Virus record (IMG/VR): IMGVR_UViG_3300017762_000021
Span: 1 to 38,666 of that record
Length of the DNA: 38,666 nucleotides
Direction: 5' to 3' (one strand)
DNA from: a virus
Shown here: one piece after another, positions 4,961-29,084 of the stretch
Numbering within the stretch: the first letter of the stretch is position 1
Layout of the letters: each line of letters starts with the position of its first letter
The notes under the pieces: model-generated
Told to the model about the DNA's origin: nothing
Databases searched by the model: none
What the model saw: the letters and a program-made list of their open reading frames with translations, nothing else
Program-made: the position numbers and the translations under genes

Positions 4961-5376
4961 GATGCCCTCGCTGTTACTACTTCGAATCCATAATCAAAGT
5001 AGCCTACTTTTTTAAATATTATCTCAAATTGTCCTGGGTCGTTAAATGTTAAATTTAATGTCGTATCAGACATTGTTGTTTTTAAAACATCATCTATCCA
5101 TACTTGAGTTCCTGTTGGTATTCCTGTAATAGATAATGGAGTTTCTAGTGCAGGAGAGTATGTACTAATTGTAGGATTAAAAGTTGATTTTAAAATAACT
5201 CCATCCTCATCATCATTTACATAGTATCTATTTGCATCTAGTACATCATCTTGTTCGACAGTTATATGACTAAGTCCTAACTCTGCTTGTTCTTGAATTA
5301 TAGCAGAAGTAATTCCATTATCTACTGTCCAGTGAATAAATTTGTTTGAGTCGTAAAATACGTTCCATGTTTTCAT
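4957..5376 (-). CDS. Tail protein with Ig/PEGA-like C-terminal domain, 139 aa
   Basis: The N-terminal half is mixed alpha/beta (MKTWNVFYDSNKFIHWTVDNG). Residues about 85-135 carry a small beta-sandwich pattern: LSITGIPTGTQVWIDDVL, a short turn, TLNLTFNDPG, then a strand ending near GYFDYGFEV. This strand order resembles PEGA or bacterial Ig-like domains, which phages use on tail fibres to touch surface sugars. It overlaps both neighbours by 4 bases (ATGA). Function is inferred only from the tail setting. Confidence 0.6.
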   Translation of the reverse strand: MKTWNVFYDSNKFIHWTVDNGITSAIIQEQAELGLSHITVEQDDVLDANRYYVNDDEDGVILKSTFNPTISTYSPALETPLSITGIPTGTQVWIDDVLKTTMSDTTLNLTFNDPGQFEIIFKKVGYFDYGFEVVTARAS

Positions 5377-6911
5377 AAACTTTCTCCATCTTTAAAGTTT
5401 TCTTCGTGAAATATAATTAAAGCATAATAAATTTTTTCATCATACCCTGTTGTTGTTTCAAAGAATCCGCCAAAATAATTATAATTTTTAGCGTATGTTT
5501 TATTAATTGCTTCTATTGAAATTGTGTTATTGTTACTTGCCGCGGTATTTGCAGCTACTTGATAATGTTTTCTAGTTACACTATTATTCGTATAAGCATT
5601 TATCATTTCGCTTTCCTCTTTCCAAGGAGTATAAGCAACAATTGCATCTGGTGTGGTTTTAGAATTTTGTCCTGTTACTAGTGAGGGAACACTTGAACCA
5701 TACCAAACGCCTCCTACTACATCAACTCCATAAGTTGTGCCTGATGTATTTCTAAAAGTAACTACAAATTTAAAATCGCTTCTCCCACCTGTGTTTGCAC
5801 CGGGCGTAAAGGTTAATCCCATTTTTGCTCTAAAAGATACAATATCTCCTTGGGTTGACCCTTGTCGGCTAAACTCAAGGTTGTTGATTGTAGTTGTGTT
5901 ATTATAACTTGCAGGAATAGTTTGTGGTGCATCTACCCTAACATAATAACCATTATCTTGAACGCCTACAGCCCCTGTGCTATTTGCATTTTGATTTTGT
6001 AAATCAAAACCTAATTTTATATCTACTTGAATCCAGTTGTCTTTCTCTACATTATAGTAGTTTTCTGAGCTTCCCCCATATATTCCAGGGTCTGTAAATT
6101 GTGCATATTGTCCGAAGCTATGTGAAGTAGTTACCTCTAGTACATAATCTCTTCCCGCGTATGCTTGTTTTACTCTTGGACGCATTGCCATACTTCTATG
6201 AGCAGGTGCTTGATATTGATTACCATAACTTCCTCTAGAAAATCTTAGGGCATATGCAGGAACTCTTGTAGATGTTAAAACATCATGATTCTTCCCCCAG
6301 TTATGAGTTATATTTACTCCAGTATGTCCTCTATTTCCATTCCAATAACTAGTATTACTTGTTGTTAGTATTCCTTGATGTACTTCATATACTGAGAGTC
6401 CTCCGCCAATATGACCCCCTGAATCAAACGTAGTGCTTTCTAATCTTCCTTCATCTACTCCAATTACATTTGCTCCTGCATACGGACTTGCTGATGTACC
6501 ACTTCCACTAGAAGTATTTATTCCAGATACAAAAGCTCCTCGTCCTCCCTCTGCTCCAATAACAATTGGAGTATTAGAATATGCTGTTTCTCCATAATCA
6601 TTTAATCTTACTAAAGGTGCTTGTACTCCTCCTGGCGGCTGAGCACTTGAACCAAAGTAAGTTTGATAAGAACCTGTGCCTTGATATGTCCAATCATCTT
6701 CTACATATGTAGTGCCATCTGGCATTGTTAGTGTTAAATTTGCAGAAGAATTAAAACTTACTGCATTTGCTAATCTTAGTACTGCCTTTACTATGTAGTA
6801 GCCACCTGAATGTATATAATCATATTCTACTTGTAATACATTTACAGTAGTTGTTCCATCACTGATTGTGGTTGGTGTTGTTCTTTTTCCTATTACTGCT
6901 CTATTTGCCAT
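5373..6911 (-). CDS. Large tail/fibre protein, 512 aa
   Basis: Begins MANRAVIGKR, similar to the MTKRVALGKL start of the 411-aa protein just upstream, so the two probably share an attachment peptide. The rest is Tyr/Gly/Asn/Ser/Thr-rich and beta-structured, with aromatic patches such as NYFGGFFE near the C-terminus and no catalytic motif I recognise. Composition fits a surface-exposed tail fibre or tip protein. It lies in the J-to-fibre block with a 2-base gap to its upstream neighbour. Confidence 0.65.
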   Translation of the reverse strand: MANRAVIGKRTTPTTISDGTTTVNVLQVEYDYIHSGGYYIVKAVLRLANAVSFNSSANLTLTMPDGTTYVEDDWTYQGTGSYQTYFGSSAQPPGGVQAPLVRLNDYGETAYSNTPIVIGAEGGRGAFVSGINTSSGSGTSASPYAGANVIGVDEGRLESTTFDSGGHIGGGLSVYEVHQGILTTSNTSYWNGNRGHTGVNITHNWGKNHDVLTSTRVPAYALRFSRGSYGNQYQAPAHRSMAMRPRVKQAYAGRDYVLEVTTSHSFGQYAQFTDPGIYGGSSENYYNVEKDNWIQVDIKLGFDLQNQNANSTGAVGVQDNGYYVRVDAPQTIPASYNNTTTINNLEFSRQGSTQGDIVSFRAKMGLTFTPGANTGGRSDFKFVVTFRNTSGTTYGVDVVGGVWYGSSVPSLVTGQNSKTTPDAIVAYTPWKEESEMINAYTNNSVTRKHYQVAANTAASNNNTISIEAINKTYAKNYNYFGGFFETTTGYDEKIYYALIIFHEENFKDGESL

Positions 6912-6913
6912 GA

Positions 6914-8149
6914 TTAAAAAATTGCCAATGAATGTACTCTTGGTTCTAAACTGAATTTTACCGTTGCCGCTGATTCTAGTGTAAAACTATAGCTTGTAAA
7001 TAAATTATCTGATGAAGAACTATAAGTTACTGAAGAAGTAGGTGACGAAACTAATGGAGTTGGTGCTACTGTGTATGGATTATAAAAAGATACTGTTTGT
7101 GTTTGATTATTTCCTGTAGTAGTAAGTGTACTAGTTATTGAAGGAATTGCAGCACTTGTTCCTATTACATCGGCATAGTTAGTAGCTAATTTTTGGTCAT
7201 CTCCTCTATAGGCTATTCCTGCCACTCCATTATCTGTACCTAGTATTAAATCATCTATCTCGCAAGAATCAACATCATATCCAGGTCTTGATACATAAAG
7301 TCCCCCAGCATTAGAAAAACCTGCTGTGCTATTTGTAAACTTTCCTGATATTACTCTTTTCTTTCCTTTTGTAGGAGTATATGCATGTTGATAATTAGCT
7401 CCATCTGCATAATAAAGTTGATTCATATAGCCATAAGCACAAGGTAATCTTAAAACTTTAAAAGATAAGTCTTCACATAAATTTAGTGATTGTCTTACTA
7501 CATTTGAAGTTCCGACTTCTATCCAAGGGCCTTGTCCTGTATAGAAAGAAGCTGCTCGAATAGGTTGAATTGAATCTTCTCTTGAAGCTATTTGTTCTGC
7601 TATAGCATTATTTGCAAATGTACTTAAAGCTCCTACTTGTGAAAATACTTTTCTAAATCCTTGTTTCTTTTCGTCATGAGTAATTAAAGGAATGTAATTT
7701 AAAAAATCAGTTCCTCTTTTGAAGTTTACCTCAGTACTTGCACTAGATTGAAATCCTTGTGCATAAATAACACCTCTTCTATCGCTTCTACTATCAAAGA
7801 GTAAATCCTTTTGCCCTACTTGGTCTACATTTGCATTTTGTTTTGCAACTTTTAATCCATATTCATTATAGTCTGCATAAAAAGTGCCGTTGTTAGGTAA
7901 ATACTGACTACTTATATTATGACTTAAAACTATATCCCAAGTGTCTCCAAATGCAGCTTGATTTTTATGAGTCACTCTTACATTTGTACCTGCAATATTA
8001 TTAGTTCCATCTATACTAATGTAAGCTCCCACTCTTATTGCTTCTGCATTTGAGACCTTATAATATCCTGTCGCACTCGAAGAAGCACGTCCATTTGCAT
8101 CTACTGTATGTACTGTTGCTAGTTTACCTAGAGCTACTCTCTTTGTCAT
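6914..8149 (-). CDS. Tail protein downstream of J, 411 aa
   Basis: Starts MTKRVALGKL and continues with a Ser/Thr/Gly-rich, beta-type sequence. The middle (about residues 95-320) contains more charged, folded-looking sequence (DSRSDRRGVIYAQGFQ, HDEKKQGFRKVF). The end (TTTGNNQTQTVSF, then SSVTYSSSSDN) is again low complexity. No known domain is recognised. The start codon overlaps the stop of J by one base, so its translation is coupled to J and it likely joins the tail tip. Confidence 0.65.
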   Translation of the reverse strand: MTKRVALGKLATVHTVDANGRASSSATGYYKVSNAEAIRVGAYISIDGTNNIAGTNVRVTHKNQAAFGDTWDIVLSHNISSQYLPNNGTFYADYNEYGLKVAKQNANVDQVGQKDLLFDSRSDRRGVIYAQGFQSSASTEVNFKRGTDFLNYIPLITHDEKKQGFRKVFSQVGALSTFANNAIAEQIASREDSIQPIRAASFYTGQGPWIEVGTSNVVRQSLNLCEDLSFKVLRLPCAYGYMNQLYYADGANYQHAYTPTKGKKRVISGKFTNSTAGFSNAGGLYVSRPGYDVDSCEIDDLILGTDNGVAGIAYRGDDQKLATNYADVIGTSAAIPSITSTLTTTGNNQTQTVSFYNPYTVAPTPLVSSPTSSVTYSSSSDNLFTSYSFTLESAATVKFSLEPRVHSLAIF

Positions 8150-11100
8150 TAGTCTTCTATTAGTATCCTCTCGTTATCTCTATCTATTGTTATTTTACTT
8201 CCTACTGCTATTGTCTCTCCTGTGTCTACATCTCCTGATGTATTAAATGGTGAGTTTGCTATACTTCCTACATTTACCTGTGCTGAACTACCTCCGCCTG
8301 ATAGCACTCCATTTGCTGCAAGTGTTATACCATTATTTCTTATAGATTTTGAGGCATCAAGTGGGTCTACACCTTCTTTTACTCTACTAAATTTAGTTCT
8401 AGAGTCTGAGGACAATACATCATATGTTTGATTGCTTCCTCCTGTACCTATTTTATAAGTAAATACCCCATCTGTAGAGTTTGCTGGAACTGTAAATCTA
8501 TGTGCTGTTTCTTGAGCTTTTGCATTAGTTTCAGCCGTGGTTGCTCTAGCTTGAATCTGTGTCGGTGTTTCTCCTCCTATACCGCCTATAGTTACTGAAC
8601 CTGTACCTGCTCCTGATAACGAACCATTAGAGTTCATTGTAATTTTAGTATTATTCACTTTTATTGATGAAGTACCTATTCCTTGTAGTATACCACTCGA
8701 GTCTACAGTAACTCCTTCATTTCTTATGGATTTTGAGGCATCAAGTGGGTCTACACCTTCTTTTACTCTACTAAATTTAGTTCTAGAGTCTGAGGACAAT
8801 ACATCATATGTTTGGTTTCCTCCTCCTGTGCCTATTTTATAAGTAAATACTCCATCTGTACTATTAGCAGGTACTGTAAATCTATGCGTAGACTCTTGCA
8901 GTTTAGCTGCTGTCTCTGCGTCATCTGCTTTTACCTGTGAGTCTGCTGTATTTTCTAATGTTTTAGTTGCATCGCCAGGTAATTTGTTATTTCTTAAGTT
9001 ATCAAGTTTTGTTCTTTCTGTACTATTAAATACATTAACAGTACTATTCGTACCATCTAAAGTTAGGGTAAATACTCCTTGTGTTGAATTATCTGCAAAA
9101 GTTGTTTTATTTGGTTTTTGTCCAGAATCAAAAACTTTATTAGAGCCTACAATATCTGCCTCAAGAATACTATCATTTTGAATACTTATATTTGCATTAC
9201 CAGGTGCTTTACCTAGTCTTAAGTTAGCAAGTTTTCCTCTTTCAGTAGAATCAAATACATCTACATCTTCAACATTCCCACCATTTATTTTAAATCTCCA
9301 ACGTCCTTGTTCTGAATCATCTACTTTTTCAAATTTATTTGCGTCTGAAGGTGGTTTTGTTCCTCCTATATCTCCATAGTTTTGAACATATCTTATTGGG
9401 TCATTCCATGTAATTGTTGAACTTCCTGCAGGTTTATTACCAACAGAAACCCAAAGTATTCCACTGCCATTACTAAATGCAGTTACAATACTAGTATACC
9501 AACCTGAAGGCGGATTTGATGTGCCTGCAGCTGGTGCGTCTGGTTCAGTACTACTAAATTTATAAATATTTATAATACTATTACCAGTATCTCCTGTAGC
9601 ACCATCTCTGACTCTTAAAAGTGTAAGCTCATCTTCATCTACTATATATTGACCTCCAGGAGAAGACGAAGCAGAATATGCTTCTACTTTAAATACTTCA
9701 GCACCTAAACTTATAGCACCTGCACTTACATTTACTGTGTTATCTGTAGAAAGTGCTTGTATAGTACTAAAGTTCTCTCCACCGTCTGTAGATTTTAAGA
9801 ATTTATATTCGTAACTTCCAAAAATTGTAAAAGGAGAAGGAGGTGTTGCTCTTAGTTCAATTGTAGAAGGGCTAGGATTTGCTCCTGTATTGTCGTATTT
9901 GAAAACCTGTTCTGATGCTACTAAATTAGTGCTTGCAAAAATGGTTGTTTTATCTATCGTGTATACTTTTTCAATAGTTATAGAACTAGCAGTTACCGTG
10001 CCTGTCATTGTAAAGTTTTCTATATCGGAAGACCAACTGCCTCCAGCTAATGAATAAACTCCTGTTGAGTTATTAATTGTAAGAGTTAAATTATTTTGTG
10101 TTTTTGTCGTTGAAGTTGCACCGACAGTTCCTCCACTAATCCCATATACTACTCCAGAAGTAAGTTCTGAAGCTCCGCTATATATCTTAAATTCTCCACC
10201 TGTTCCTGTATAGTTTATAGTATTGTTATTAAAGTCAAAGAAGGAACCTACTGTTGCTGAAGCAGCTTCGTTGGTTAATAGACCATTTATACCTGCTGCT
10301 CCTGTACTACCATCATCTCCTTTTTTTGATTTCGTAAATGTTTGTGCTTTTGTAAGAGTTACTGTATCTTCTATATCAATACTATACTCTATTTCTGAAA
10401 GGTCTGTACCATTTGCAACACCACTATGATTTCCAACTGTAATATTTTTATTTCCTGAATTAAATAACTGAAATGTTCCTGGTGTAATATTTGTTGCGCT
10501 TGTTGTAACTGCGTACTCATTCGTAGAAGGTGTAGTATTATTTGCTACTGGAGTAAGTTGTGTTGCTCCTTTATATACTTCTATTTTTGTACCTGAATTT
10601 GCAAAACTACTTACTACACCAGTATTTGATGCAGGGAAGGTATGTGCTTCATTAGTTAGTATAGCTGTATATGCTGGGGCACCATCTGTACCTTGGCTTC
10701 CTTGTTGTAGTGAGGTAAGTGTGATTGTATCAAATGCAAGTTCTGTTTGGTTTGCTTCTGCTACACCAACCTTAATTGTTTGTGGAGTAGTATTTATACT
10801 TGAAGGAACACTAAAATTAATTGTATCTGTGGTTGTATTTGAGCCGTTTGCTGTAAACGTTCCTTCATCACTTATACCATCTCCTGTAAATCTAAAATAT
10901 GGATTAGTGAAATTTTGAGCAGTCGCTGTTAATACAATTGTACTACTAGGGCTTGGATTTGTACCATCCGGTCCGTATACGATTGAATAATCACTTGCTG
11001 TTAAATTAACTGTTCTTGAGTCTGTACCCGCTCCTGCAGCTCCTGGTATACTTTTACCTAGTGAAATAACTCTTGTCGCAATTGTTTCATTTGTTTCTCT

Positions 11101-14100
11101 GTCTGTAATCGTAACTGTTATCTTAGCTATATCGGCTGCCATTGCTGTAACTGTTATTGCTCCTGTGCTAGAGTTTATCACTGAAGTACAGTTTGAATCT
11201 GATTTTGTTAATCCGAAAGTACTTGGTGTTGAGCCAGAACTTGCAAAGACATAACTTATTGTGCCTTTGTTAACTGTGTATGAATTTGTAAAACTTGAAA
11301 AATCTGTAACAAGTCCAGCTGCTGATGAAGGGAAGTTATGGTTTTCATTGGTTCCATTAATTGTAAAAGCATCGGCACCTCTATTACCACTAGAAAAGTT
11401 AACTAATGAGAAAACTCCTCCAGTATTTGTTACTGCTGCAAGTATAGAGTCATTTGCATTTGAAGTTCTAAGTGTCTGTCTGAATACATTTACACTGTTG
11501 TATGCTCTTGTAGGAGCAGTTGTTAAACTCAAAGCAGTATTACTTTCTATGTGACCAACAGTAGTTATAAATCTAGTTGTTCCTGCATCACCAATAATTA
11601 TAACATCTCCTGCTTCAAAACCTGTAGCAGATACATCAAATGTTGTACCTGTACCACTAACATCTACAGATGAAGCAGCTACTGATACAGTACCACTTAA
11701 TTGTGTAAAGTCTTCATTAGACTCTCCTAATCTTGTTGCATATTGGAAATAGTTTTCTACTCCATTTGCATCTTCTGTTGTTTCTTCTGTTTGGAAAAAT
11801 ACTGGTTGTAATAAATCTGTTCGTGTTTCCCCTCTTGATAGACTTCCATCGTAGTCTAAATATAAATAACCTGTTTCTCCATTTCCTAAATTATTAAAGT
11901 TTGCCTGAGTTGTCGCAGTAGTATTTCCTGAAGAAACAACATTTATAACTGGTAAGCCAGGATTAGGTGGTGTATATGTGTAAGTACTTGAAGCAAAAGT
12001 AACTGTACCATTTGAAGTATTAACATCAATTGGACAACTTAAAATACCGCCACGAGCAATACCTCCATTAAGTCCAAATCCAACTGCAGGAATATTTTGA
12101 GGTAATAGTTTATCTTCATTAATTTCTATAGTTCTTTGTACCCAAGATGATGTAACACCAATAGAGTTTACAGTTCTTACTCTAACTATTACTTCTCCTG
12201 TAACTCCTAAATCTTTTATTCTAAAACTTGTAGTATTCGTGCTTGATATAGTTTCTCTTAAGAACTTACCTAGCACATCTCCTTCATCTGCATTATGCGC
12301 TATTTCATAAGCTGCTAAGTGTTCATAGACATCGTCTACATTATCACCATTTGGGTCTTGTATACCGTTAGTAGGATGTTGCCATTCTACTAATAAATCT
12401 CTTCCATTTTCTGCACCTATGTCTCCTTGTCCACTAGAAACTACTTCTAAGAATACTTCTTGAGGCTCTGGAACAGCGTCTGAATCTCTTGGAGGTCTCA
12501 TTACATCAGGTATATTAGGTATGATATATCCTCTATCTATAGAGTCGAATTTTGATATATCATATTCTACAGCACTTATAGAGAAAGTCATTTCTTCAAA
12601 GTTTTCTTTAATAGAAGTTATCATGTACTGTTTTAAACTTCCAGCTACGCTTGAGCCGTCTGCTTTTTGACCTGATACAGTATATATTACCTCTCCATTT
12701 GGAACGGAAGAAAATGCACTACTTACAGTTATAGCACTAGAGCTAAAGTTTGAAATAGGTTTTGTTTCTATTCTAGTTTCTTCTGACCATGTTAACTGTA
12801 CTGCAGCTCCTGCATCATCTTTACAGTTTGATGCCTTTGCTTCTGTATCAATAGATGCTCCGCTTTCGTCGAGTAGTACTAAATCTCCTTGTCTATAATT
12901 AGTAGAGTTTATAGTAGCAGAAGTTTGAGTTAAGTAAGCACCTCCGCTTGGATAGATTAAATGTAAGTCAAAGTTGTCATTTTGATTTAAAAATCCACTT
13001 ATATCACGGTCAGTCTTAACTACTGTTGTTGTAGAAGAAGATGTTGTTGTAACTCTACCACTTGCAACTATATCTGTTAAGTCTGGGTCTTGTACATTAA
13101 TTACATCTCCAGGTCTTAGCATACCACCATTAATACCTGTTTCAAAACTACAGATTTCTTTCTCTTTTAGCTCTCCTGCTAAGTGCCATTTACCATATCT
13201 TATAGCTTGACCTTCTGACGTACAACCAAAAGCTGTAACATTCTTACTTTTTATTTTTCCTGTTTTAGCTATATCGTCACTATCTTCGACAGTAACAACA
13301 TCTTGCTTGTATGATTTTTCTGGGTTGTTCCAAGTTACTACAACTTGATTATTTCTAAATCTACTAGAAGTGCCTTGGTATGTGAAATCTCCATTAATTA
13401 CATTTGATTTTGTAAATGTGTATATTGCACCTTTTTGAATATTAGCACCAAGACTTACTTGCCCATTCCACCATATTAACATACTTCTCATTGTAGTACT
13501 AAAGTTCTTTAATATTTTTATAGCATTTTGATTCTTTTGTATATAAATATTACACTCAAAGCGAGGTTCTACTCCCCCTTTTCCATCAGGTACAAGTTCG
13601 TCACAATATTTTGCTAAGCTGTACATAGTATACTTATCAATCATTGAGAAGTCAAAATCAGGGTCAATATGTTGTCCTAACCCATAACGAGGATTAGTCA
13701 TTAAATCCATAAATATCCAAACTGGATTACTTGTATATACTGGTTCGTAATTTACATGAGAAGGTGAAAATGTTTTCTTATCGCCTCTAAAGTTACCGTC
13801 CCAATCTACATATGCTGAAGTATCTGCACCACTTGTTACATTTCTTGTATAAGCTGCACTTGTTCTTCTAAGTCCTGCCCCTGTTTTTTCTTCTTTTGGA
13901 AAATAGTTTGTAGGAACTTTTACTTTTAATCCTCTAATTTCATATGACCTTTTTGGTATAGATGTGAAATCTTTTGCATCTACAATAACTCCTGCATATG
14001 CTGTATAAGGAAAACTTAATTTATCTGTTATAATATTTTCAATACTTTGCAAAGTAGCAGAAGAACTCCATGCCCAATTACCCTCTTGACCATTTACTTC

Positions 14101-15459
14101 ATTTATTCTTTCTACTTTTATTGTATAGTTATCAAACGGTTGAAATTTACTAATATCAAACTCATAAATATAGTTAAAGTTTCTTTTTGTACCAGCTACA
14201 ATTGCTGTTCCAACAGTAACTCCACCTCTATGTCCTGCACTATAATTATATCCATATTTTCTGCTTACACTACTATAACTTGACTGCCCATTTAATATTG
14301 TTGTATGTTCTGTTCCATTTCTTTCGTATACTAAACTAATTCTATATATCGCCCCTTGTTTTTCTATCTTATTACCGTCTGCTTTGTAAGCGTTCAATCC
14401 TTGCGGAAAGTTAAAAGTTAATCTAATTAAATCAACTTCACCTGGGTCAGATACTCCCATACCACCGCTGCCTGATGCAACATAGTTACCCGCTGTTCCT
14501 GTATAAGGAGGATTGTCTGTTTTTCCTAATCTTTTACCTTGTTCTGTCCAAGTAGGATATCCTGTATTTGGTACGGTATCTAAGTTTCCATTTGTTACTC
14601 TGTATGCGACTGAAGCACTACCGATACCTGCTGGTGTCGGCAGATAAGTTTGATTTCTAGTACCATGTCTAAATGCCCATAAAAAGTTATCGTATTTTGC
14701 TAGAGGTTTTTGTGTTGCTGTTCTTGTTGGAGTACTAAGCGTTGCTGTTGTATTACTTGTGTCTACACCACCTGCTGCTATTGTTACTTTATTTTGTGAA
14801 GGGTTATAACTTGTTACAGTTCCAACATAGTCTAGTTTACAGACTGCATTTGTTGTATTTTTTGAAGGTCTAAGATTTACTCGAACTGCTGCAGTATTGA
14901 TAAACTCTGTAACACGAGCAGTAAAATCTCCTCCATCGGGCCCTGCTCCTGTAATTCTAATATGTGGTAAAAGTTTTTTGGTTCCGTCTGGAACTACATC
15001 TGAAGAAGCAAAGGTGAATCCTGAAGCTCCTGAAATAATGGTATTTCCTACTGATGTATTGATTGTTCCTCTTTTTGAGCCTCCTACAATTAATACATCC
15101 CTACTGCCTTGTGCTGTATTTGCTGAATTTATAAAAGAAGGAGTATTATGGTCAGTTACAACTCCTGTTGAAGCAACATAACTAACATCTGTAGCATCTA
15201 AAATAGCTACTATGTCCTTATCCCCATAATTAAATGCTTGGTTTCCCCCGAGTTTAATACTTGCACCATCATCTACTAAACCTTCAATAGGGCCTTCTGA
15301 TAATGCATCATAAATTACTGCTGTTTGATGATAAGTAATCCCTGAGCCTCCACCAGAGGTAGTTGTACCAATATTAGCAAGTGAGTTGTTATCTTCTGCA
15401 CTCTTTTCGTTTTCTGCAACTGTCGTTGCTATTTTCATCATACTTGATAACCAACCCAT
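8149..15459 (-). CDS. J: Tail tip attachment protein J (host specificity), 2436 aa
   Basis: Follows gpK- and gpI-like genes as in lambda. Residues about 1-110 and 570-690 match the J core: an N-terminal YHQTAVIYDALSEGPIEGLV signature and the segment from VWIFMDLMTNPRYGLG to the MLIWWNGQVSLG strand. A fibronectin type III-like domain lies near 1000-1110 (LLVEWQHP, then GEVIVRVRTVNSIG). After it come three related modules starting LTNEAHTFPAS, NGTNENHNFPSS and LLTNEAASATVG, joined by short collagen-like G-x-y linkers (GTDGAPA, GDDGSTGAAG, GATGDTGN). The last ~300 residues hold two near-identical ~75-residue copies. At 2436 residues it is about twice lambda J (1132), the extra length being the distal modules. 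It should sit at the tail end and recognise the receptor. Confidence 0.92.
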   Translation of the reverse strand: MGWLSSMMKIATTVAENEKSAEDNNSLANIGTTTSGGGSGITYHQTAVIYDALSEGPIEGLVDDGASIKLGGNQAFNYGDKDIVAILDATDVSYVASTGVVTDHNTPSFINSANTAQGSRDVLIVGGSKRGTINTSVGNTIISGASGFTFASSDVVPDGTKKLLPHIRITGAGPDGGDFTARVTEFINTAAVRVNLRPSKNTTNAVCKLDYVGTVTSYNPSQNKVTIAAGGVDTSNTTATLSTPTRTATQKPLAKYDNFLWAFRHGTRNQTYLPTPAGIGSASVAYRVTNGNLDTVPNTGYPTWTEQGKRLGKTDNPPYTGTAGNYVASGSGGMGVSDPGEVDLIRLTFNFPQGLNAYKADGNKIEKQGAIYRISLVYERNGTEHTTILNGQSSYSSVSRKYGYNYSAGHRGGVTVGTAIVAGTKRNFNYIYEFDISKFQPFDNYTIKVERINEVNGQEGNWAWSSSATLQSIENIITDKLSFPYTAYAGVIVDAKDFTSIPKRSYEIRGLKVKVPTNYFPKEEKTGAGLRRTSAAYTRNVTSGADTSAYVDWDGNFRGDKKTFSPSHVNYEPVYTSNPVWIFMDLMTNPRYGLGQHIDPDFDFSMIDKYTMYSLAKYCDELVPDGKGGVEPRFECNIYIQKNQNAIKILKNFSTTMRSMLIWWNGQVSLGANIQKGAIYTFTKSNVINGDFTYQGTSSRFRNNQVVVTWNNPEKSYKQDVVTVEDSDDIAKTGKIKSKNVTAFGCTSEGQAIRYGKWHLAGELKEKEICSFETGINGGMLRPGDVINVQDPDLTDIVASGRVTTTSSSTTTVVKTDRDISGFLNQNDNFDLHLIYPSGGAYLTQTSATINSTNYRQGDLVLLDESGASIDTEAKASNCKDDAGAAVQLTWSEETRIETKPISNFSSSAITVSSAFSSVPNGEVIYTVSGQKADGSSVAGSLKQYMITSIKENFEEMTFSISAVEYDISKFDSIDRGYIIPNIPDVMRPPRDSDAVPEPQEVFLEVVSSGQGDIGAENGRDLLVEWQHPTNGIQDPNGDNVDDVYEHLAAYEIAHNADEGDVLGKFLRETISSTNTTSFRIKDLGVTGEVIVRVRTVNSIGVTSSWVQRTIEINEDKLLPQNIPAVGFGLNGGIARGGILSCPIDVNTSNGTVTFASSTYTYTPPNPGLPVINVVSSGNTTATTQANFNNLGNGETGYLYLDYDGSLSRGETRTDLLQPVFFQTEETTEDANGVENYFQYATRLGESNEDFTQLSGTVSVAASSVDVSGTGTTFDVSATGFEAGDVIIIGDAGTTRFITTVGHIESNTALSLTTAPTRAYNSVNVFRQTLRTSNANDSILAAVTNTGGVFSLVNFSSGNRGADAFTINGTNENHNFPSSAAGLVTDFSSFTNSYTVNKGTISYVFASSGSTPSTFGLTKSDSNCTSVINSSTGAITVTAMAADIAKITVTITDRETNETIATRVISLGKSIPGAAGAGTDSRTVNLTASDYSIVYGPDGTNPSPSSTIVLTATAQNFTNPYFRFTGDGISDEGTFTANGSNTTTDTINFSVPSSINTTPQTIKVGVAEANQTELAFDTITLTSLQQGSQGTDGAPAYTAILTNEAHTFPASNTGVVSSFANSGTKIEVYKGATQLTPVANNTTPSTNEYAVTTSATNITPGTFQLFNSGNKNITVGNHSGVANGTDLSEIEYSIDIEDTVTLTKAQTFTKSKKGDDGSTGAAGINGLLTNEAASATVGSFFDFNNNTINYTGTGGEFKIYSGASELTSGVVYGISGGTVGATSTTKTQNNLTLTINNSTGVYSLAGGSWSSDIENFTMTGTVTASSITIEKVYTIDKTTIFASTNLVASEQVFKYDNTGANPSPSTIELRATPPSPFTIFGSYEYKFLKSTDGGENFSTIQALSTDNTVNVSAGAISLGAEVFKVEAYSASSSPGGQYIVDEDELTLLRVRDGATGDTGNSIINIYKFSSTEPDAPAAGTSNPPSGWYTSIVTAFSNGSGILWVSVGNKPAGSSTITWNDPIRYVQNYGDIGGTKPPSDANKFEKVDDSEQGRWRFKINGGNVEDVDVFDSTERGKLANLRLGKAPGNANISIQNDSILEADIVGSNKVFDSGQKPNKTTFADNSTQGVFTLTLDGTNSTVNVFNSTERTKLDNLRNNKLPGDATKTLENTADSQVKADDAETAAKLQESTHRFTVPANSTDGVFTYKIGTGGGNQTYDVLSSDSRTKFSRVKEGVDPLDASKSIRNEGVTVDSSGILQGIGTSSIKVNNTKITMNSNGSLSGAGTGSVTIGGIGGETPTQIQARATTAETNAKAQETAHRFTVPANSTDGVFTYKIGTGGSNQTYDVLSSDSRTKFSRVKEGVDPLDASKSIRNNGITLAANGVLSGGGSSAQVNVGSIANSPFNTSGDVDTGETIAVGSKITIDRDNERILIED
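8345..8430 (-). repeat. Exact 86-bp direct repeat in J, copy 2 in reading direction
   Basis: The 86 bases starting gattttgaggcatcaagtgg are identical to 8729-8814, exactly 384 bases (128 codons) away, so both copies are in the same frame. They encode the DVLSSDSRTKFSRVKEGVD part of the terminal J module. Near-identity continues into the flanks at the protein level (HRFTVPANSTDGVFTYK in both). Confidence 0.85.
8729..8814 (-). repeat. Exact 86-bp direct repeat in J, copy 1 in reading direction
   Basis: Partner of the copy at 8345-8430. The identity includes wobble positions, unlike other repeats in this gene, which points to recent duplication or recombination-driven homogenisation. Confidence 0.85.
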
Positions 15460-15460
15460 A

Positions 15461-16111
15461 TTATGCCTCGAAATTTACATCGCCAAAAGCGTCTTTTGTA
15501 TATCCAGTAGAATTTGTTTTTCTAACTTTCGTAAAACCAAAGTTTGTAACAACTCCACCACACTCTACTCTACCATATGCCATAGGTACAGGTACCCCTA
15601 CTTTTGTTGTATTAACTGGTCCGTTAAACAAAGAAGACTTTTCAGGCTCATCGTTTCCGTCAGCGTCTGGCATCACCATGTCTATAATACCTTGTAATGC
15701 TAACATTGCTCCCATAGCACCTATAGCGTACCCTAATGCTCCTCCTGTTACTATAGCTCCCCATATAAGTAAAGCTCCTGCTATAACTTTGAATAAACCT
15801 TTAACAAGTTTACCAAAAATCGCTCCAGCAGGAACAGGAGTAATAATTATATCGTCATCATCTAAAAAATTTCCTATATCTTGTTCTCCGATAAAGTCAT
15901 CTATGTTTTCTTTTGCATATGCCTTTACTTCACTTCCTCTCTGAACAGTAAACTTTATACCTAAATCAGTACACTCCATAATATATCTACGAAGTCCTCC
16001 TTTCATTACATCAATGGCGTGCATAGCTTCTTGAATTGTTTTTACATTCAATCTATGCTCCTTTCCAAAGAGTTCTCCCATTCTTCCTTTTAATTTTATT
16101 GTTCTTGTCAT
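15461..16111 (-). CDS. I: Tail assembly protein I (lambda gpI-like), 216 aa
   Basis: N-terminal ubiquitin-like beta-grasp pattern (TIKLKGRMGELFGKEHRLNVKT) with VSxx-like spacing, as in lambda gpI. A hydrophobic Gly/Ala-rich segment at about residues 98-145 is followed by the diagnostic C-terminal stretch SLFNGPVNTTKVGVPVPMAYG. Length (216) is close to lambda gpI (223). It overlaps the JAMM gene by four bases and ends 2 bases before J. In lambda this protein is needed for tip assembly but is not kept in the mature tail; the same role is inferred here. Confidence 0.9.
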   Translation of the reverse strand: MTRTIKLKGRMGELFGKEHRLNVKTIQEAMHAIDVMKGGLRRYIMECTDLGIKFTVQRGSEVKAYAKENIDDFIGEQDIGNFLDDDDIIITPVPAGAIFGKLVKGLFKVIAGALLIWGAIVTGGALGYAIGAMGAMLALQGIIDMVMPDADGNDEPEKSSLFNGPVNTTKVGVPVPMAYGRVECGGVVTNFGFTKVRKTNSTGYTKDAFGDVNFEA

Positions 16112-16422
16112 TTTGGCTCTAAAATTGTATAATCTTTGTCGGGATACGATACGATAAAGTATGGTATGCCAATCTCGTTACAGTTATTAATATCATGCTC
16201 ACTTGGATGACAATCTTCATCATAGTGACTATGGACTACATATAATATTTTCGAAATAGCTTGAATTGTTGCGAAAGCTAATGGGTTCATTTCAAACTCA
16301 TTTTCATTTTCAGAAATATTTTCCATGGGAATATATCGTTTGTTGTTACCATCTTGTATAACAAGTCCACAACACTCGCGCGGGGCACATTCTGCAGCAT
16401 GCTCAAATATACTATCAATCAT
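16108..16422 (-). CDS. K: gpK-like JAMM metalloprotease domain protein, 104 aa
   Basis: Contains a complete JAMM/MPN+ zinc site: Glu16 (PRECCGL), His64 and His66 (VVHSHYD), Ser74 and Asp77 (HPSEHD), fitting E...HxHx7Sx2D. In lambda gpK this domain is followed by an NlpC/P60 peptidoglycan hydrolase; here the protein stops after 104 residues and no NlpC/P60 gene lies between L and I. Overlaps of 4 bases with both neighbours confirm the L-K-I order. Predicted role: zinc-dependent processing or deconjugation during tail-tip assembly. Confidence 0.88.
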   Translation of the reverse strand: MIDSIFEHAAECAPRECCGLVIQDGNNKRYIPMENISENENEFEMNPLAFATIQAISKILYVVHSHYDEDCHPSEHDINNCNEIGIPYFIVSYPDKDYTILEPK

Positions 16423-17642
16423 TTAAAGTTTCTCGCTGCTGGAAAACCTCCAAAAGGTAACACAGCATTTGTGTTTGTTGCTGCTTTACCTGTTGATGTG
16501 GTACTAGTAAGACTTTTAGGAGCAAACCCAAATCTCATTTTACATCCTGTAGTGGTTTTACTACACAAGTCTCCTTTTTTCCAATACTTTGTATATCCAG
16601 GTGCTTGACTTTCACTAGGCTGGTCAGCTTTCCATAGTAATGTTTTATTATAAGTTTCTGAAGTAGATACATTATCCGTAAATACTACATAATCATTATC
16701 TCTATCATCAACGTAAGTAAAGTATTCTGTACCGTGGTTATATGTAGAGTAAACTCTTATTCTTTTATAATTAGAGTTACTATCTGAAGGTGTTCCAAGA
16801 ACTCCAGATTTTGTTGCTTGCCAGTAGTTACTTACAGTTACACTACTAGTGCCTCCATCTGCATTAAATCTTGCAGAAGTTTTAGTATTTCTATAATAAG
16901 CATCTTTTGTAGCACTAAAACTTGTGGAGCCTACTGTTATAAAACTTGTTGTTGAAGGCACTATATATTCATCATCTTCATTTACGAATACAGTAAATTT
17001 AACACCATTACCTGTGCTGCCTCCATATACTGTTCCTTCTATATGCCAATTACACCCACTTTGTTCTCTTTTCCATCTGTCTAAATGAGGACTTGCGCCT
17101 TGATATTTAAATGAACATCTATCTGCATAAATTACTCTTGCAGGTATTTTTGCAGTCTCTAAATCAAATGGGGATAGTAATTCTATTTGAACATAACTTT
17201 TGCTTCTTGTCTTAATTCTATCCATAATCCAGACTTGTCTAGGATATTCTGTAGGTGGGTTTGAACTGCTTCCAGACCCATTATCTAGATATTTTTTCAG
17301 AGTTGTTCTACGAATAAATTTTAATCCAAGGATATCGTTGTAGTCTAATGTTCCAATTGCATTGCTAAATACTGTATTTATATTTGCTATGAGTATATTT
17401 GGTCTTGCCATAGCACCATCATTTTTTGTTTCAAATCCTTCTGATTTTATAGGTAGTGCAACATACTCTCTAATTGTACTTGGTGAGTCATAGTCTCTAA
17501 AATGTAAAGTACTTAAATCTTCTTCTAATCCGCTATGAAAGTATACAAACTCTCCTTTCTCATACTCTAGTTCATAGAGATGTATCAGTTCTGAGCCTGG
17601 GTCAAGTTTTTGAAAATCTTCTACTAGTGGTTTATCTGCCAT
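16419..17642 (-). CDS. L: Minor tail protein L (Fe-S tail tip protein) with large insertion, 407 aa
   Basis: The first ~200 residues follow lambda gpL: FQKLDPGSELIHLYELE, VWIMDRI, LLSPFDLETAKIPAR, then Cys176 (DRCSFKYQG) and Cys197 (SGCNWH). The C-terminus has Cys360 and Cys367 (GDLCSKTTTGCKMRFG) and the gpL ending LPFGGFPAARNF. These four cysteines match the [4Fe-4S] ligand set known for lambda gpL. In lambda the second and third cysteines are about 23 residues apart; here they are 163 apart. The inserted Thr/Ser/Tyr-rich, beta-type segment (about 205-350) explains why the protein is 407 rather than ~230 residues. Confidence 0.88.
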   Translation of the reverse strand: MADKPLVEDFQKLDPGSELIHLYELEYEKGEFVYFHSGLEEDLSTLHFRDYDSPSTIREYVALPIKSEGFETKNDGAMARPNILIANINTVFSNAIGTLDYNDILGLKFIRRTTLKKYLDNGSGSSSNPPTEYPRQVWIMDRIKTRSKSYVQIELLSPFDLETAKIPARVIYADRCSFKYQGASPHLDRWKREQSGCNWHIEGTVYGGSTGNGVKFTVFVNEDDEYIVPSTTSFITVGSTSFSATKDAYYRNTKTSARFNADGGTSSVTVSNYWQATKSGVLGTPSDSNSNYKRIRVYSTYNHGTEYFTYVDDRDNDYVVFTDNVSTSETYNKTLLWKADQPSESQAPGYTKYWKKGDLCSKTTTGCKMRFGFAPKSLTSTTSTGKAATNTNAVLPFGGFPAARNFK

Positions 17643-18019
17643 TATGCCTCGTATATTCTTCTAAATGTTGCTGATAGACTATAAAAATCGTCATAGTCCC
17701 AAGTTTGGTCCCAAGTTTCACAAACTACTTTTACTGTTTCTTCATTACCGCCTGCATTACTATCAGAAAAAATAAAGTTAAATGCAGTTGCTCCTTTCTT
17801 ACTTTCAAAGAAAGAAACTATATCATCTATCTCATCTTTTGGTCTGTTTGCAAATGATACACTAAAAGATTGTTTAATATTATTAATACCATGTGCGAGT
17901 CTTTGCTCATAGCCATCGCCAAACTCTGCTATATGAACTTTTGGTTCATTATTTCTACTAAATCCTTTATCTGGTGCCACTACTCCGAGTGTGCCGCCTA
18001 CATCAAATCCTATTGCCAT
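17642..18019 (-). CDS. M: Minor tail protein M (lambda gpM-like), 125 aa
   Basis: Matches the lambda minor tail protein M family: PKVHIAEFGDGYEQRLAHGIN near the start, then SVSFANRPKDEIDDIVSFFE, a GATAFNF core and a C-terminal Y/F-S-L-S-A-T-F-R-R-I-Y ending. Length is near lambda gpM (109). It lies immediately after the tape measure and one base before L. It is expected to form part of the ring that joins tube and tip. Confidence 0.9.
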   Translation of the reverse strand: MAIGFDVGGTLGVVAPDKGFSRNNEPKVHIAEFGDGYEQRLAHGINNIKQSFSVSFANRPKDEIDDIVSFFESKKGATAFNFIFSDSNAGGNEETVKVVCETWDQTWDYDDFYSLSATFRRIYEA

Positions 18020-26776: not shown

Positions 26777-28831
26777 TTAGTCAGCTTTATACATCCAACC
26801 CCACTTAGAAGTTGCACCGTCGATTAGGTCGGTAAAACCTATTCTTTGAGAAGCCACTAGGACTCTTCTTTGGTTTGCTACTTCGTAGTCTGATTCAATA
26901 GTAACGCCTCTTAATCTTGGCATTACATAGTTTCTTGGGTTAACTGCGATAGCTCCAAATTTAGCTACTGCTGGAGTAGCGAACTCGTCACACATTAAGA
27001 CTCTAGAGCCATAAACCTGTCCGATTTCACCATTTAGCTTAGTAGCCATGTCGCCAACTAGGTTAGCGTCTTGGAATTCTGCATCTTCTAATAATTCATA
27101 GTAAGACCTTTGTGAAACAATATATATTACTTCACTTGGGTTTATACCATATTTACCCATATTCTTTCTCATTTCAAGTAAGTCAGTTGCTACAATTTTA
27201 TCAGAAGCAAAAGCTGTACCTGATTGTGTGTAGTCTGAATCATTTCTTGCTAAGTGTAAAAGACCTTCAAAAGCTGCACCTGAAGTACCATAAGCACCAT
27301 CAGCATCGTCACCAGCTAGGACAGCATTCTCTATGCCTCTAGCGTGTGCTCTCACCATTGATTCTCTAATTAAAGGAAGAATCGGTAAGATTGCATCTTC
27401 TTCAGTTTCATTACCTAAGTAAGATTGTGAGATTAATTTTTTGGTTGAAAGAGTTCTTTCAGTCATGTCTACGCCACCTGCTGAACCAGGGTTATAAGCG
27501 TCTCCTCTTTCCTGTAAGTTACCATGTGGTGAAGAACCACTAGCTGTTTGTCCTGCTGCAAATTCAGCATAACCAGCATCTGGTAGGATTGGGATAATCA
27601 TGTTAGCAGAAGTCATAGCGATTTCTCTAAATAGAGGTGCTAAGACTAATTCATTTTGAATATCTCTTTCGATTTGTGTTGATACGATTTGCTCAAAGTC
27701 TGCTGAAGAAACGCCAACACCACTATGTGCGTTAACTTTTTCCATTACACCTTTTGCATAATCACTGTTCCATCCTTTACCAGTAGCTAAACCAGCAAAT
27801 TTTGCATCAATGATATCATTCTCGTAAGCTTTTTTCCAGTCGCCTTGACCTTGTCTGTCGTTGAAAATTCTTTTTGATTCTCTGATTGACATGATTTCTT
27901 CTGATTTCTCAGCTAGTTGCTTCTCTAATCCGTCCACAACTGTTTTTAAGTCTTCATGTTGCTCAGAAACTCTTTTTTCTACGTCATTCATAAGTCTCTC
28001 AGCGCCTGTTAAGCCAGCTTCGATAATAGTTTTTTGCTCGTCCTGTTTTGCTTCTTGAACAGCCTTTTCATTAGCCTCTACTTCAGCTTGCTTTTCAGCC
28101 TGCTCTTGTAGTGCTTTTTCTTCTGCTGCTTTTTGCTCGGCTTGTTTCATTGCTATTTTAGCTGCAGTATCCTCTGCAACTTTTTTCGCAAATGCTTCCA
28201 AGTCGATTGAAGTTTCAGGAGATTTTTTCTCTTCTGACATATCAGTCTCCGTTGATGAGGATTTCTCCTCGCTTGGCTGCTCAATTTTAACAGCGTCTGC
28301 TGCTGCGGTTGAGTTAGCCTGTAATATTTCTTTTTGGTACTTTCTGTATTCATCCATACTATCAAATGACTTGCTTAGTCCAAAGGTTGCCCCTTGGTTG
28401 CAAGGTACTGATACTACAGAAACTTCAAAAAGTTCCGCGTCTTTAATTTTGAATCCATCACTCTCAGTTAGATATTCAGAATCTTTACATCTGAATCCGA
28501 CTGAAAATGCTCCCAGGACTCCATCTTTCACTAAATGAGTAATGTCACCTGCGGCTTTTGATATCTTTGCGGTGATATCTAAACCTTTATCTGTGACTTC
28601 TAAACCAGTTGCTCTACCGATAGGTTTGTTGTAGTCGTGGTTAAAAAGAATGATTGGATTACTTTTGAAGTTTTCCAATCCGCCTTTTGTCCATGCCTCG
28701 CTTTCGATTATATCTCCAGCTCTATCTAGTGCATTTGTACTTGCAGAACCTTTGATGTTTATTCCACCATCTTCGGTTTCGCCTAGTGATTTAAAAGTAC
28801 TCGTCCAATGATAAATTTTGTTACTTGACAT
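26777..28831 (-). CDS. Fused prohead protease, scaffold and major capsid protein, 684 aa
   Basis: The start is ATG at 28831, with GGAGAAAAAGG just upstream; the open frame extends 15 codons further but overlaps the preceding gene. Residues 1-155 are an HK97-type prohead protease: His65 (ILFNHDYNKPIG), Ser110 (GAFSVGF) and the LFEVSVVSVPCN strand. Residues about 190-335 are Glu/Lys/Ala/Gln-rich coiled coil, like the delta-domain scaffold. Residues about 340-684 are an HK97-fold capsid subunit (VSTQIERDIQNELVLAPLFRE, SQRSYYELLEDAEFQD, SRVLMCDEF). Protease and capsid are separate genes in most HK97-like phages; here they form one chain, presumably cleaved in the prohead. Confidence 0.92.
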   Translation of the reverse strand: MSSNKIYHWTSTFKSLGETEDGGINIKGSASTNALDRAGDIIESEAWTKGGLENFKSNPIILFNHDYNKPIGRATGLEVTDKGLDITAKISKAAGDITHLVKDGVLGAFSVGFRCKDSEYLTESDGFKIKDAELFEVSVVSVPCNQGATFGLSKSFDSMDEYRKYQKEILQANSTAAADAVKIEQPSEEKSSSTETDMSEEKKSPETSIDLEAFAKKVAEDTAAKIAMKQAEQKAAEEKALQEQAEKQAEVEANEKAVQEAKQDEQKTIIEAGLTGAERLMNDVEKRVSEQHEDLKTVVDGLEKQLAEKSEEIMSIRESKRIFNDRQGQGDWKKAYENDIIDAKFAGLATGKGWNSDYAKGVMEKVNAHSGVGVSSADFEQIVSTQIERDIQNELVLAPLFREIAMTSANMIIPILPDAGYAEFAAGQTASGSSPHGNLQERGDAYNPGSAGGVDMTERTLSTKKLISQSYLGNETEEDAILPILPLIRESMVRAHARGIENAVLAGDDADGAYGTSGAAFEGLLHLARNDSDYTQSGTAFASDKIVATDLLEMRKNMGKYGINPSEVIYIVSQRSYYELLEDAEFQDANLVGDMATKLNGEIGQVYGSRVLMCDEFATPAVAKFGAIAVNPRNYVMPRLRGVTIESDYEVANQRRVLVASQRIGFTDLIDGATSKWGWMYKAD

Positions 28832-29084
28832 CCTTTTTCTCCTTCTTAACAGTTTTCTTAGGAGCTGGTTTTTCAACTACCTTTTCTACTGCTGCTACTT
28901 GGACAGGGTGTCTTTTCTTCATAGCAGATAATACTCTATTCCAAGAACCAAATGCTCTTCTAAGCAAATAGTCTTTAACAGGTACATCATTACCATGAGA
29001 TTTATATTCAGGTAAATCCATTACTTCAACGCCTTTTTCGGCCATGAAATCGGATAAAGCCTTTATCATCTTGTCTTTTGTCAT
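28821..29084 (-). CDS. Small protein with FGSWN motif and Lys-rich tail, 87 aa
   Basis: Residues 5-58 (MIKALSDFMAEKG, then NDVPVKDYLLRRAFGSWNRVL) look like the small helical repeat seen beside homing endonucleases, in which a helix-turn-helix-like element ends in FGSWN. The last 25 residues are rich in Lys, Pro, Val and Ala, like a histone-H1-type tail. Together they suggest DNA binding. It sits between portal and capsid and overlaps the capsid fusion start by 11 bases. Function unknown. Confidence 0.6.
   Translation of the reverse strand: MTKDKMIKALSDFMAEKGVEVMDLPEYKSHGNDVPVKDYLLRRAFGSWNRVLSAMKKRHPVQVAAVEKVVEKPAPKKTVKKEKKDVK

Follow-up and report, generated by a model that had tools for sequence, protein, structure and literature searches.

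Gene L and the tail-tip operon

The window analysed here is a stretch of 38,666 nucleotides from an uncultured marine phage (IMG/VR record IMGVR_UViG_3300017762_000021, positions 1 to 38,666). On the minus strand, the open reading frame at 16419-17642 encodes a protein of 407 aa, L, which on the evidence of sequence comparison is a lambda-type tail-tip hub protein and a homologue of gpL. It scores above the cut-off for PF05100 in Pfam (E=1.4e-24; 87 bits, cut-off 25) and for TIGR01600 in NCBIfam (86.8 bits, cut-off 70.75), and matches phrog_18 in PHROG at E=6.5e-40. A phmmer search of the PDB with L returned the F2-pyocin hub protein, lambda gpL, T1 gp36 and one more hub. The gene order M-L-K-I-J is present, with L lying between M and K and followed by I and J:

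17642..18019, minus strand: gene M, distal tail protein (PF05939, E=2.4e-21)
16419..17642, minus strand: gene L, tail-tip hub protein gpL, 407 aa (ORF; PF05100, TIGR01600, phrog_18)
17133..17642, minus strand: N-terminal hub domain of L (AlphaFold model; VIA-align to known hubs)
16108..16422, minus strand: gene K, JAB-domain part only (PF14464, E=2e-13; phrog_30)
15461..16111, minus strand: gene I (phrog_32, E=2.6e-40)
8149..15459, minus strand: gene J, central fibre, 2436 aa (phrog_31, E=1.4e-112)
8149..10062, minus strand: C-terminal part of J, residues ~1800-2436, replaced in relatives (J match ends by 1798)

Several other features of the window were recorded. Gene K encodes only 104 aa and matches the JAB domain alone, without the NlpC/P60 part; the motif H-x-H-x7-S-x2-D is visible in its sequence (16108-16422, minus strand) and is presumably the JAMM motif pattern. 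In several cultured relatives, K carries the annotation of a C40 or P60 peptidase. Directly after J lie two large ORFs, both on the minus strand, at 6914-8149 (411 aa, no PHROG match at E up to 1) and 5373-6911 (512 aa, weak PHROG matches only). Further away, a single ORF of 699 aa (26777-28876, minus strand) matches a head protease (phrog_80, residues 10-320) as well as major head protein families; the corresponding stretch consists of two separate genes in T5-like phages, and the ORF is a natural protease-capsid fusion. A scan of the window found no RNA family and no tRNA. Promoter-like sites around L occur at the level of shuffled sequence (13 vs 12.4 in shuffles), terminator-like sites above it (5 vs 1.4).

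The four cysteines and the domain between them

L contains exactly four cysteines, at residues 176, 197, 360 and 367. The Fe-S ligands of lambda gpL, as given in the account of the lambda tail-tip structure, are Cys173, Cys182, Cys205 and Cys212 (PMC10721106), and the two sets correspond as follows:

17115..17117, minus strand: Cys176, first Fe-S ligand (lambda Cys173; phmmer; invariant in 59/59)
17052..17054, minus strand: Cys197, second Fe-S ligand (lambda Cys182; order and spacing; invariant in 59/59)
16566..17051, minus strand: insert between Cys2 and Cys3, residues 198-359, predicted all-beta domain (spacing 163 vs 23 in lambda; model pLDDT 85.4, pTM 0.73)
16563..16565, minus strand: Cys360, third Fe-S ligand (lambda Cys205; phmmer; invariant in 59/59)
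16542..16544, minus strand: Cys367, fourth Fe-S ligand (lambda Cys212; phmmer; invariant in 59/59)

When L is compared with lambda gpL by phmmer, the blocks around Cys1 and around Cys3-Cys4 align, and the C-terminal block DxCSKxxxGCKxRF falls onto lambda Cys205 and Cys212. The equivalence of Cys2 is based on order and spacing, MAFFT having misplaced the short linkers at this point. The cysteine spacings are 21/163/7 in L and 9/23/7 in lambda; thus the insert amounts to 140 residues beyond the lambda linker. Alignment also showed two smaller additions that the sequence-only reading had missed, namely a Cys1-Cys2 loop 12 residues longer than that of lambda and ~17 extra residues between Cys4 and the LPFGGF end. 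Among 13 L proteins of cultured phages that were inspected, the Cys2-Cys3 spacing is 22 or 23 in 12. The L protein of Rhizobium phage RHph_Y1_11 (L092, 1192-1911) lacks the usual third cysteine, having DKPN where others have DxC, and carries two adjacent cysteines at the site of the fourth ligand.

In the full-length AlphaFold model of L, the N-terminal hub domain and the core of the insert are good. The hub domain aligns by VIA-align with lambda gpL (8iyk_L; Z 12.8, rmsd 5.5, 147 residues aligned), T1 (9l9p_J; Z 11.0, rmsd 3.8, 135 aligned), roseophage R4C (8gtc_P; Z 10.7) and RcGTA (Z 10.4), and the Chi and T5 hubs also match. The Fe-S segments (158-188, 191-222 and 357-407) have pLDDT below 50, so it is by homology that the four ligands are taken to form a [4Fe-4S]-type knot in L. 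Folded alone by AlphaFold from an alignment of 59 sequences, the insert reached a pLDDT of 85.4 and a pTM of 0.73 and was all beta; the prediction shows it folding on its own.

The sequence-only reading had described four cysteines that match the gpL cluster, with a beta-type domain rich in Thr, Ser and Tyr between the second and third ligands. The spacing and the cysteine correspondence bear this out, as do the all-beta model and the composition of residues 205-350 (13.7% T, 13.0% S, 8.9% Y). The range given for it, 16560-17030, covers residues 205-361, only one of the four Cys codons lying inside.

Distribution and conservation of the insert

One search of IMG/VR with full-length L gave relatives at 18 loci, and a wider search gave 323, of which 80 were kept. 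An alignment of 59 L proteins was built from the window and 58 of these 80 loci, near-duplicates and partial sequences being dropped by hand. All 59 have the four cysteines, with a Cys2-Cys3 spacing of 158-168. A second route started from alignment A6, which covers the conserved J core, and 80 of at least 577 loci were kept; some of their contigs are identical to those of the search for L relatives. Of these 80 loci, 46 gave an L ORF and the remaining 34 gave none. In all 46 the four cysteines are kept, with gaps of 20-23 (Cys1-Cys2), 158-201 (Cys2-Cys3) and 7 (Cys3-Cys4), and no clade member without the insert was found among them. On the strength of these 46/46 L ORFs, recent or sporadic insertion was rejected. 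Within the part of it that was examined, the insert looks fixed in a broad uncultured marine clade.

Among cultured phages, 635 records match L, none of them covering 80% of it. The insert alone gave one chance-level hit there (E 5), and a diverged insert gave no match at E up to 1. A search of species-genome contigs for prophage relatives found none. Since the insert is fixed in the examined clade and absent from the cultured records searched, it marks a type of tail tip beyond those represented by current structures.

The insert is conserved in 58/58 aligned relatives, the lowest identity to the window being 52%. In the 51 relatives in which M, L, K and I are all present, identity to the window averages 69.3% (M), 65.8% (K), 60.9% (hub core of L), 58.4% (insert) and 54.1% (I); for residues 1-300 of J the average is 51.3% (45 relatives). 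The insert has a dN/dS of ~0.31, against 0.28 in the hub core (633 of 1711 pairs, with dS near saturation). This conservation, together with the dN/dS, argues that the insert is not chance sequence, and by the same comparisons it evolves like the hub core.

The C-terminus of J presents a different picture. In 15/15 non-identical records, the main match to J goes no further than residue 1798, with short further pieces past residue 1800 in 4 of them; in a near-identical record J aligns over its whole length. Judged from these alignments, the C-terminus of J is the part that changes between relatives and the insert is not. As the insert is kept across phages with differing J C-termini, it probably does not determine host range. 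A J relative in another record (L266, the record of L061, 79,752 bases) contains two in-frame TAG codons, for which stop-codon reassignment, readthrough or sequence error are all possible.

Predicted fold of the insert and its probable role at the tail tip

The insert model was compared with the PDB by VIA-align, which gave 33 matches at a Z of at least 2, none above 4.7. They are redundant and represent a handful of distinct proteins: 15 are CBM5/12 proteins by profile, 11 are Serratia ChiB, 1 is GbpA and 6 are parts of phages or injection systems. Chitinase or deacetylase chains make up 26 of the 33, and ChiB is assigned to CBM5. Ten matches are to chitin oligosaccharide deacetylases; these take in the greater part of the insert, residue 37 onward, at an rmsd above 9 A. 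The better local fits, at 1.6-2.6 A, span 42-54 residues only: ChiC, its chitin-binding domain 2d49 and the Moritella chitinase fit the C-terminal part (1.6-2.5 A, 42-48 residues), and ChiB fits mostly the N-terminal part (2.1-2.6 A, ~50 residues). An independent profile made from 15 bacterial CBM5/12 sequences picks out the chains of the deacetylase, ChiC, 2d49 and Moritella, thus confirming 15 of the 33 matches as CBM5/12 proteins; within the limits set by differences in residue numbering, the stretches that it picks out overlap those aligned by fold. In BFVD, matches to the insert include 'Chitin oligosaccharide deacetylase' and 'Carbohydrate-binding module family 5/12', the best match having an E of 3.7e-3. 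Plain Foldseek against the PDB gave nothing (best E 0.56). Two modules may be distinguished, with limits that we have assumed:

16764..16970, minus strand: putative module A, residues ~225-293, with a YWQA...PGT motif (LGT in the window; ChiB matches at model positions 27-102)
16566..16760, minus strand: putative module B, residues ~295-359, ending W-K-x9-P-x5/6-W (ChiC and 2d49 matches at model positions 98-162)

In 28/28 diverse inserts, W77 and G86 of module A and W140, P151 and W157 of module B (insert numbering) are invariant.

Membership of CBM5/12 by sequence failed every profile, Pfam and shuffle test. No Pfam CBM was found in the window at E up to 10, nor in the 28 diverse inserts, and profile-profile comparison of the insert with CBM5/12 was not significant. 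When a CBM5/12 HMM was run on the 59 inserts, the observed median was reached by 56/200 column shuffles, and on the 28 diverse inserts the observed level was reached by 26/300. With hhalign, shuffles did as well in 22/200 cases for the C-terminal module and 71/200 for the N-terminal one. The insert profile found chance-level matches only among PDB sequences (best E 0.061, a xylanase). A weak local alignment of the insert with CBM5/12 does exist, and its register is close to that given by the fold comparison (W-K...P...W). The adjacent Trp-Trp pair of the CBM5/12 motif is ligand-binding, and at the corresponding positions of module B (142-145, in the register of hhalign and of the fold alignment) an aromatic residue occurs in 0/28 inserts, so that the CBM Trp pair is missing. 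Because of the failed sequence tests and the missing pair, the fold, whose resemblance to CBM5/12 is structural and weak, is here called CBM5/12-like and not filed as CBM5/12; with moderate confidence, the models suggest two such modules in tandem. The insert (16566-17051, minus strand) also has a weak match (E 1.3e-4) to phrog_511, 'internal virion protein', as do 15/59 members at E up to 0.1; the module is possibly shared with other virion proteins.

The reading that we prefer, at a probability of about 0.55, is that the insert is a pair of CBM5/12-like modules on the hub, serving as a glycan-contact accessory beside a host-specific J. As the sequence shows, a domain of ~140 residues, all beta, has been built into the gpL loop between ligands 2 and 3 with the cysteine knot kept. 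To judge from the lambda, RcGTA and R4C structures, the Fe-S domain of L would be turned outward, so that the outside of the tip would carry the insert in three copies. The modules might then contact a common surface or capsule glycan and steady or guide the tip, leaving the specific, host-range-setting contact to the variable C-terminus of gpJ. In this the insert would act as the oligosaccharide-binding domain of RcGTA and R4C is thought to do, at an equivalent site and by means of an unrelated domain.

The main rival is that the insert binds no sugar and is a structural brace, packing on gpJ, gpM or a neighbouring copy of the hub and so stabilising a tip whose J, at 2436 aa, is unusually large. 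Such a brace would be expected to be conserved like the hub core and fixed in a clade that shares the J core, as the insert is, and both the absence of the canonical aromatic pair and the lack of CBM support from sequence profiles agree with it. Nevertheless, we consider it less likely, as the nearest folds to the model are glycan-binding modules, the lambda Fe-S domain lies at the outer surface of the tip (PMC10721106), and the domain at the equivalent site in RcGTA and R4C has been interpreted as sugar-binding (PMC7296036, PMC10276861). Receptor contact had been put forward in the sequence-only reading, and a beta-rich, Thr/Ser/Tyr-rich domain at the tail tip whose fold resembles sugar-binding modules would suit the primary receptor-binding or host-range determinant of the phage group. 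The hint of glycan contact stands, but as the main reading a host-range domain was rejected, and we regard it as very improbable: the insert is not hypervariable (58.4% identity; hub core 60.9%, J 1-300 51.3%), its dN/dS is 0.31, and it is the C-terminus of J that is swapped between relatives. The insert is thus probably a general glycan-contact accessory and not the determinant of host range.

Its origin can also be viewed in two further ways. The insert might be the OB-like domain of RcGTA and R4C, inherited from a common ancestor and then enlarged; the equivalent site between ligands 2 and 3 and the matching folds of the hub cores would fit this. However, 12/13 cultured gpL proteins of PF05100 have the short linker (22-23), so inheritance would require loss in the others, and the R4C hub matches PF09931 and PF09356 in Pfam, to neither of which L has a match at E up to 1. 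The RcGTA and R4C chains (6tba, 8gtc) are not among the PDB matches of the insert model, which is not decisive, being compatible with a relation. Common ancestry is quite improbable on this evidence, and the insert looks unrelated to the oligosaccharide-binding domain. A more speculative idea, to which we give little credence, is that the gpL Fe-S knot is a standard docking socket, into which unrelated sugar-binding domains were independently plugged between ligands 2 and 3, OB-like in the GTA and R4C and CBM5/12-like in L. The cluster would in that case be a rigid clip, through which the force or signal arising from glycan binding reaches the tip. If true, this would provide a function for the unexplained Fe-S cluster of siphophage tips, the functions of which remain to be characterized according to the lambda structure paper (PMC10721106).

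Returning to the glycan-contact accessory, its setting can be compared with several known systems. Lambda gpL (8iyk_L) and T1 gp36 (9l9p_J) share with L the hub beta-sandwich, the cysteines of the Fe-S knot and the operon position between M and K. The Cys3-Cys4 spacing of 7 is the same in lambda gpL as in L, whereas the Cys2-Cys3 linker is far longer in L, as are the Cys1-Cys2 loop and the C-terminal tail. The CBM5/12 modules of ChiC, ChiB and the chitin oligosaccharide deacetylases resemble the insert in their local fits, and the CBM5/12 C-terminal block has a similar order of Trp/Tyr, Pro and Trp; they differ in that the insert has no significant sequence-profile match to them and lacks the Trp-Trp.

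The insertion had been described as new. A search of the literature brought up no description of an insert between the gpL cysteines, but a domain at the equivalent site is reported in two hubs. In the RcGTA hub g13, the ion-binding domain is split into pieces (143-167 and 250-263) around an oligosaccharide-binding domain at 168-249 (PMC7296036). The roseophage R4C hub has pieces at 142-161 and 244-266 around an oligosaccharide-binding domain at 162-243, and density for an Fe-S cluster has been reported (PMC10276861). The cysteines of the R4C hub (8gtc_P) are at 147, 157, 244 and 251, with a Cys3-Cys4 spacing of 7, and its extra domain therefore lies between ligands 2 and 3 (Cys157 and Cys244); cluster formation with a domain in this position thus has experimental support in R4C. 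Both hubs resemble L in having a domain inserted in a split Fe-S domain. The inserted domain of R4C is described as oligosaccharide-binding and has ~82 residues, while that of L has ~160 residues and no detected relation to it. The cluster-preserving insertion is thus of a known type, met here in new surroundings: L is of the lambda type, and its added domain is larger, apparently unrelated and fixed in an uncultured marine clade. That two hub families keep the four ligands with different domains in one loop suggests that the Fe-S cluster is a local staple, allowing a surface domain to be added without disturbing the hub.

Additions elsewhere in the tail tip offer further parallels. Cyanophage-type L proteins (L146, L147, L209, L212, L216 and L218) have 300 aa instead of 235 and, like L, carry an added domain adjoining the Fe-S knot. 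Their insert of 65 residues lies after Cys4, between RFG and IPFGGF, with some close relatives having it and others not, whereas that of L lies between Cys2 and Cys3; the longer cyanophage match was seen in 6 of 80 loci kept. In lactococcal siphophages, sugar-binding insertions in Dit promote adsorption (PMC10688798). The evolved Dit of these phages is similar to L in that a sugar-binding domain, putative in the case of L, is inserted in a conserved scaffold protein of the tail tip. It differs in the scaffold protein used and in the Gram-positive hosts, and phages with and without the Dit insertion coexist in one group, whereas the insert of L is fixed in its clade.
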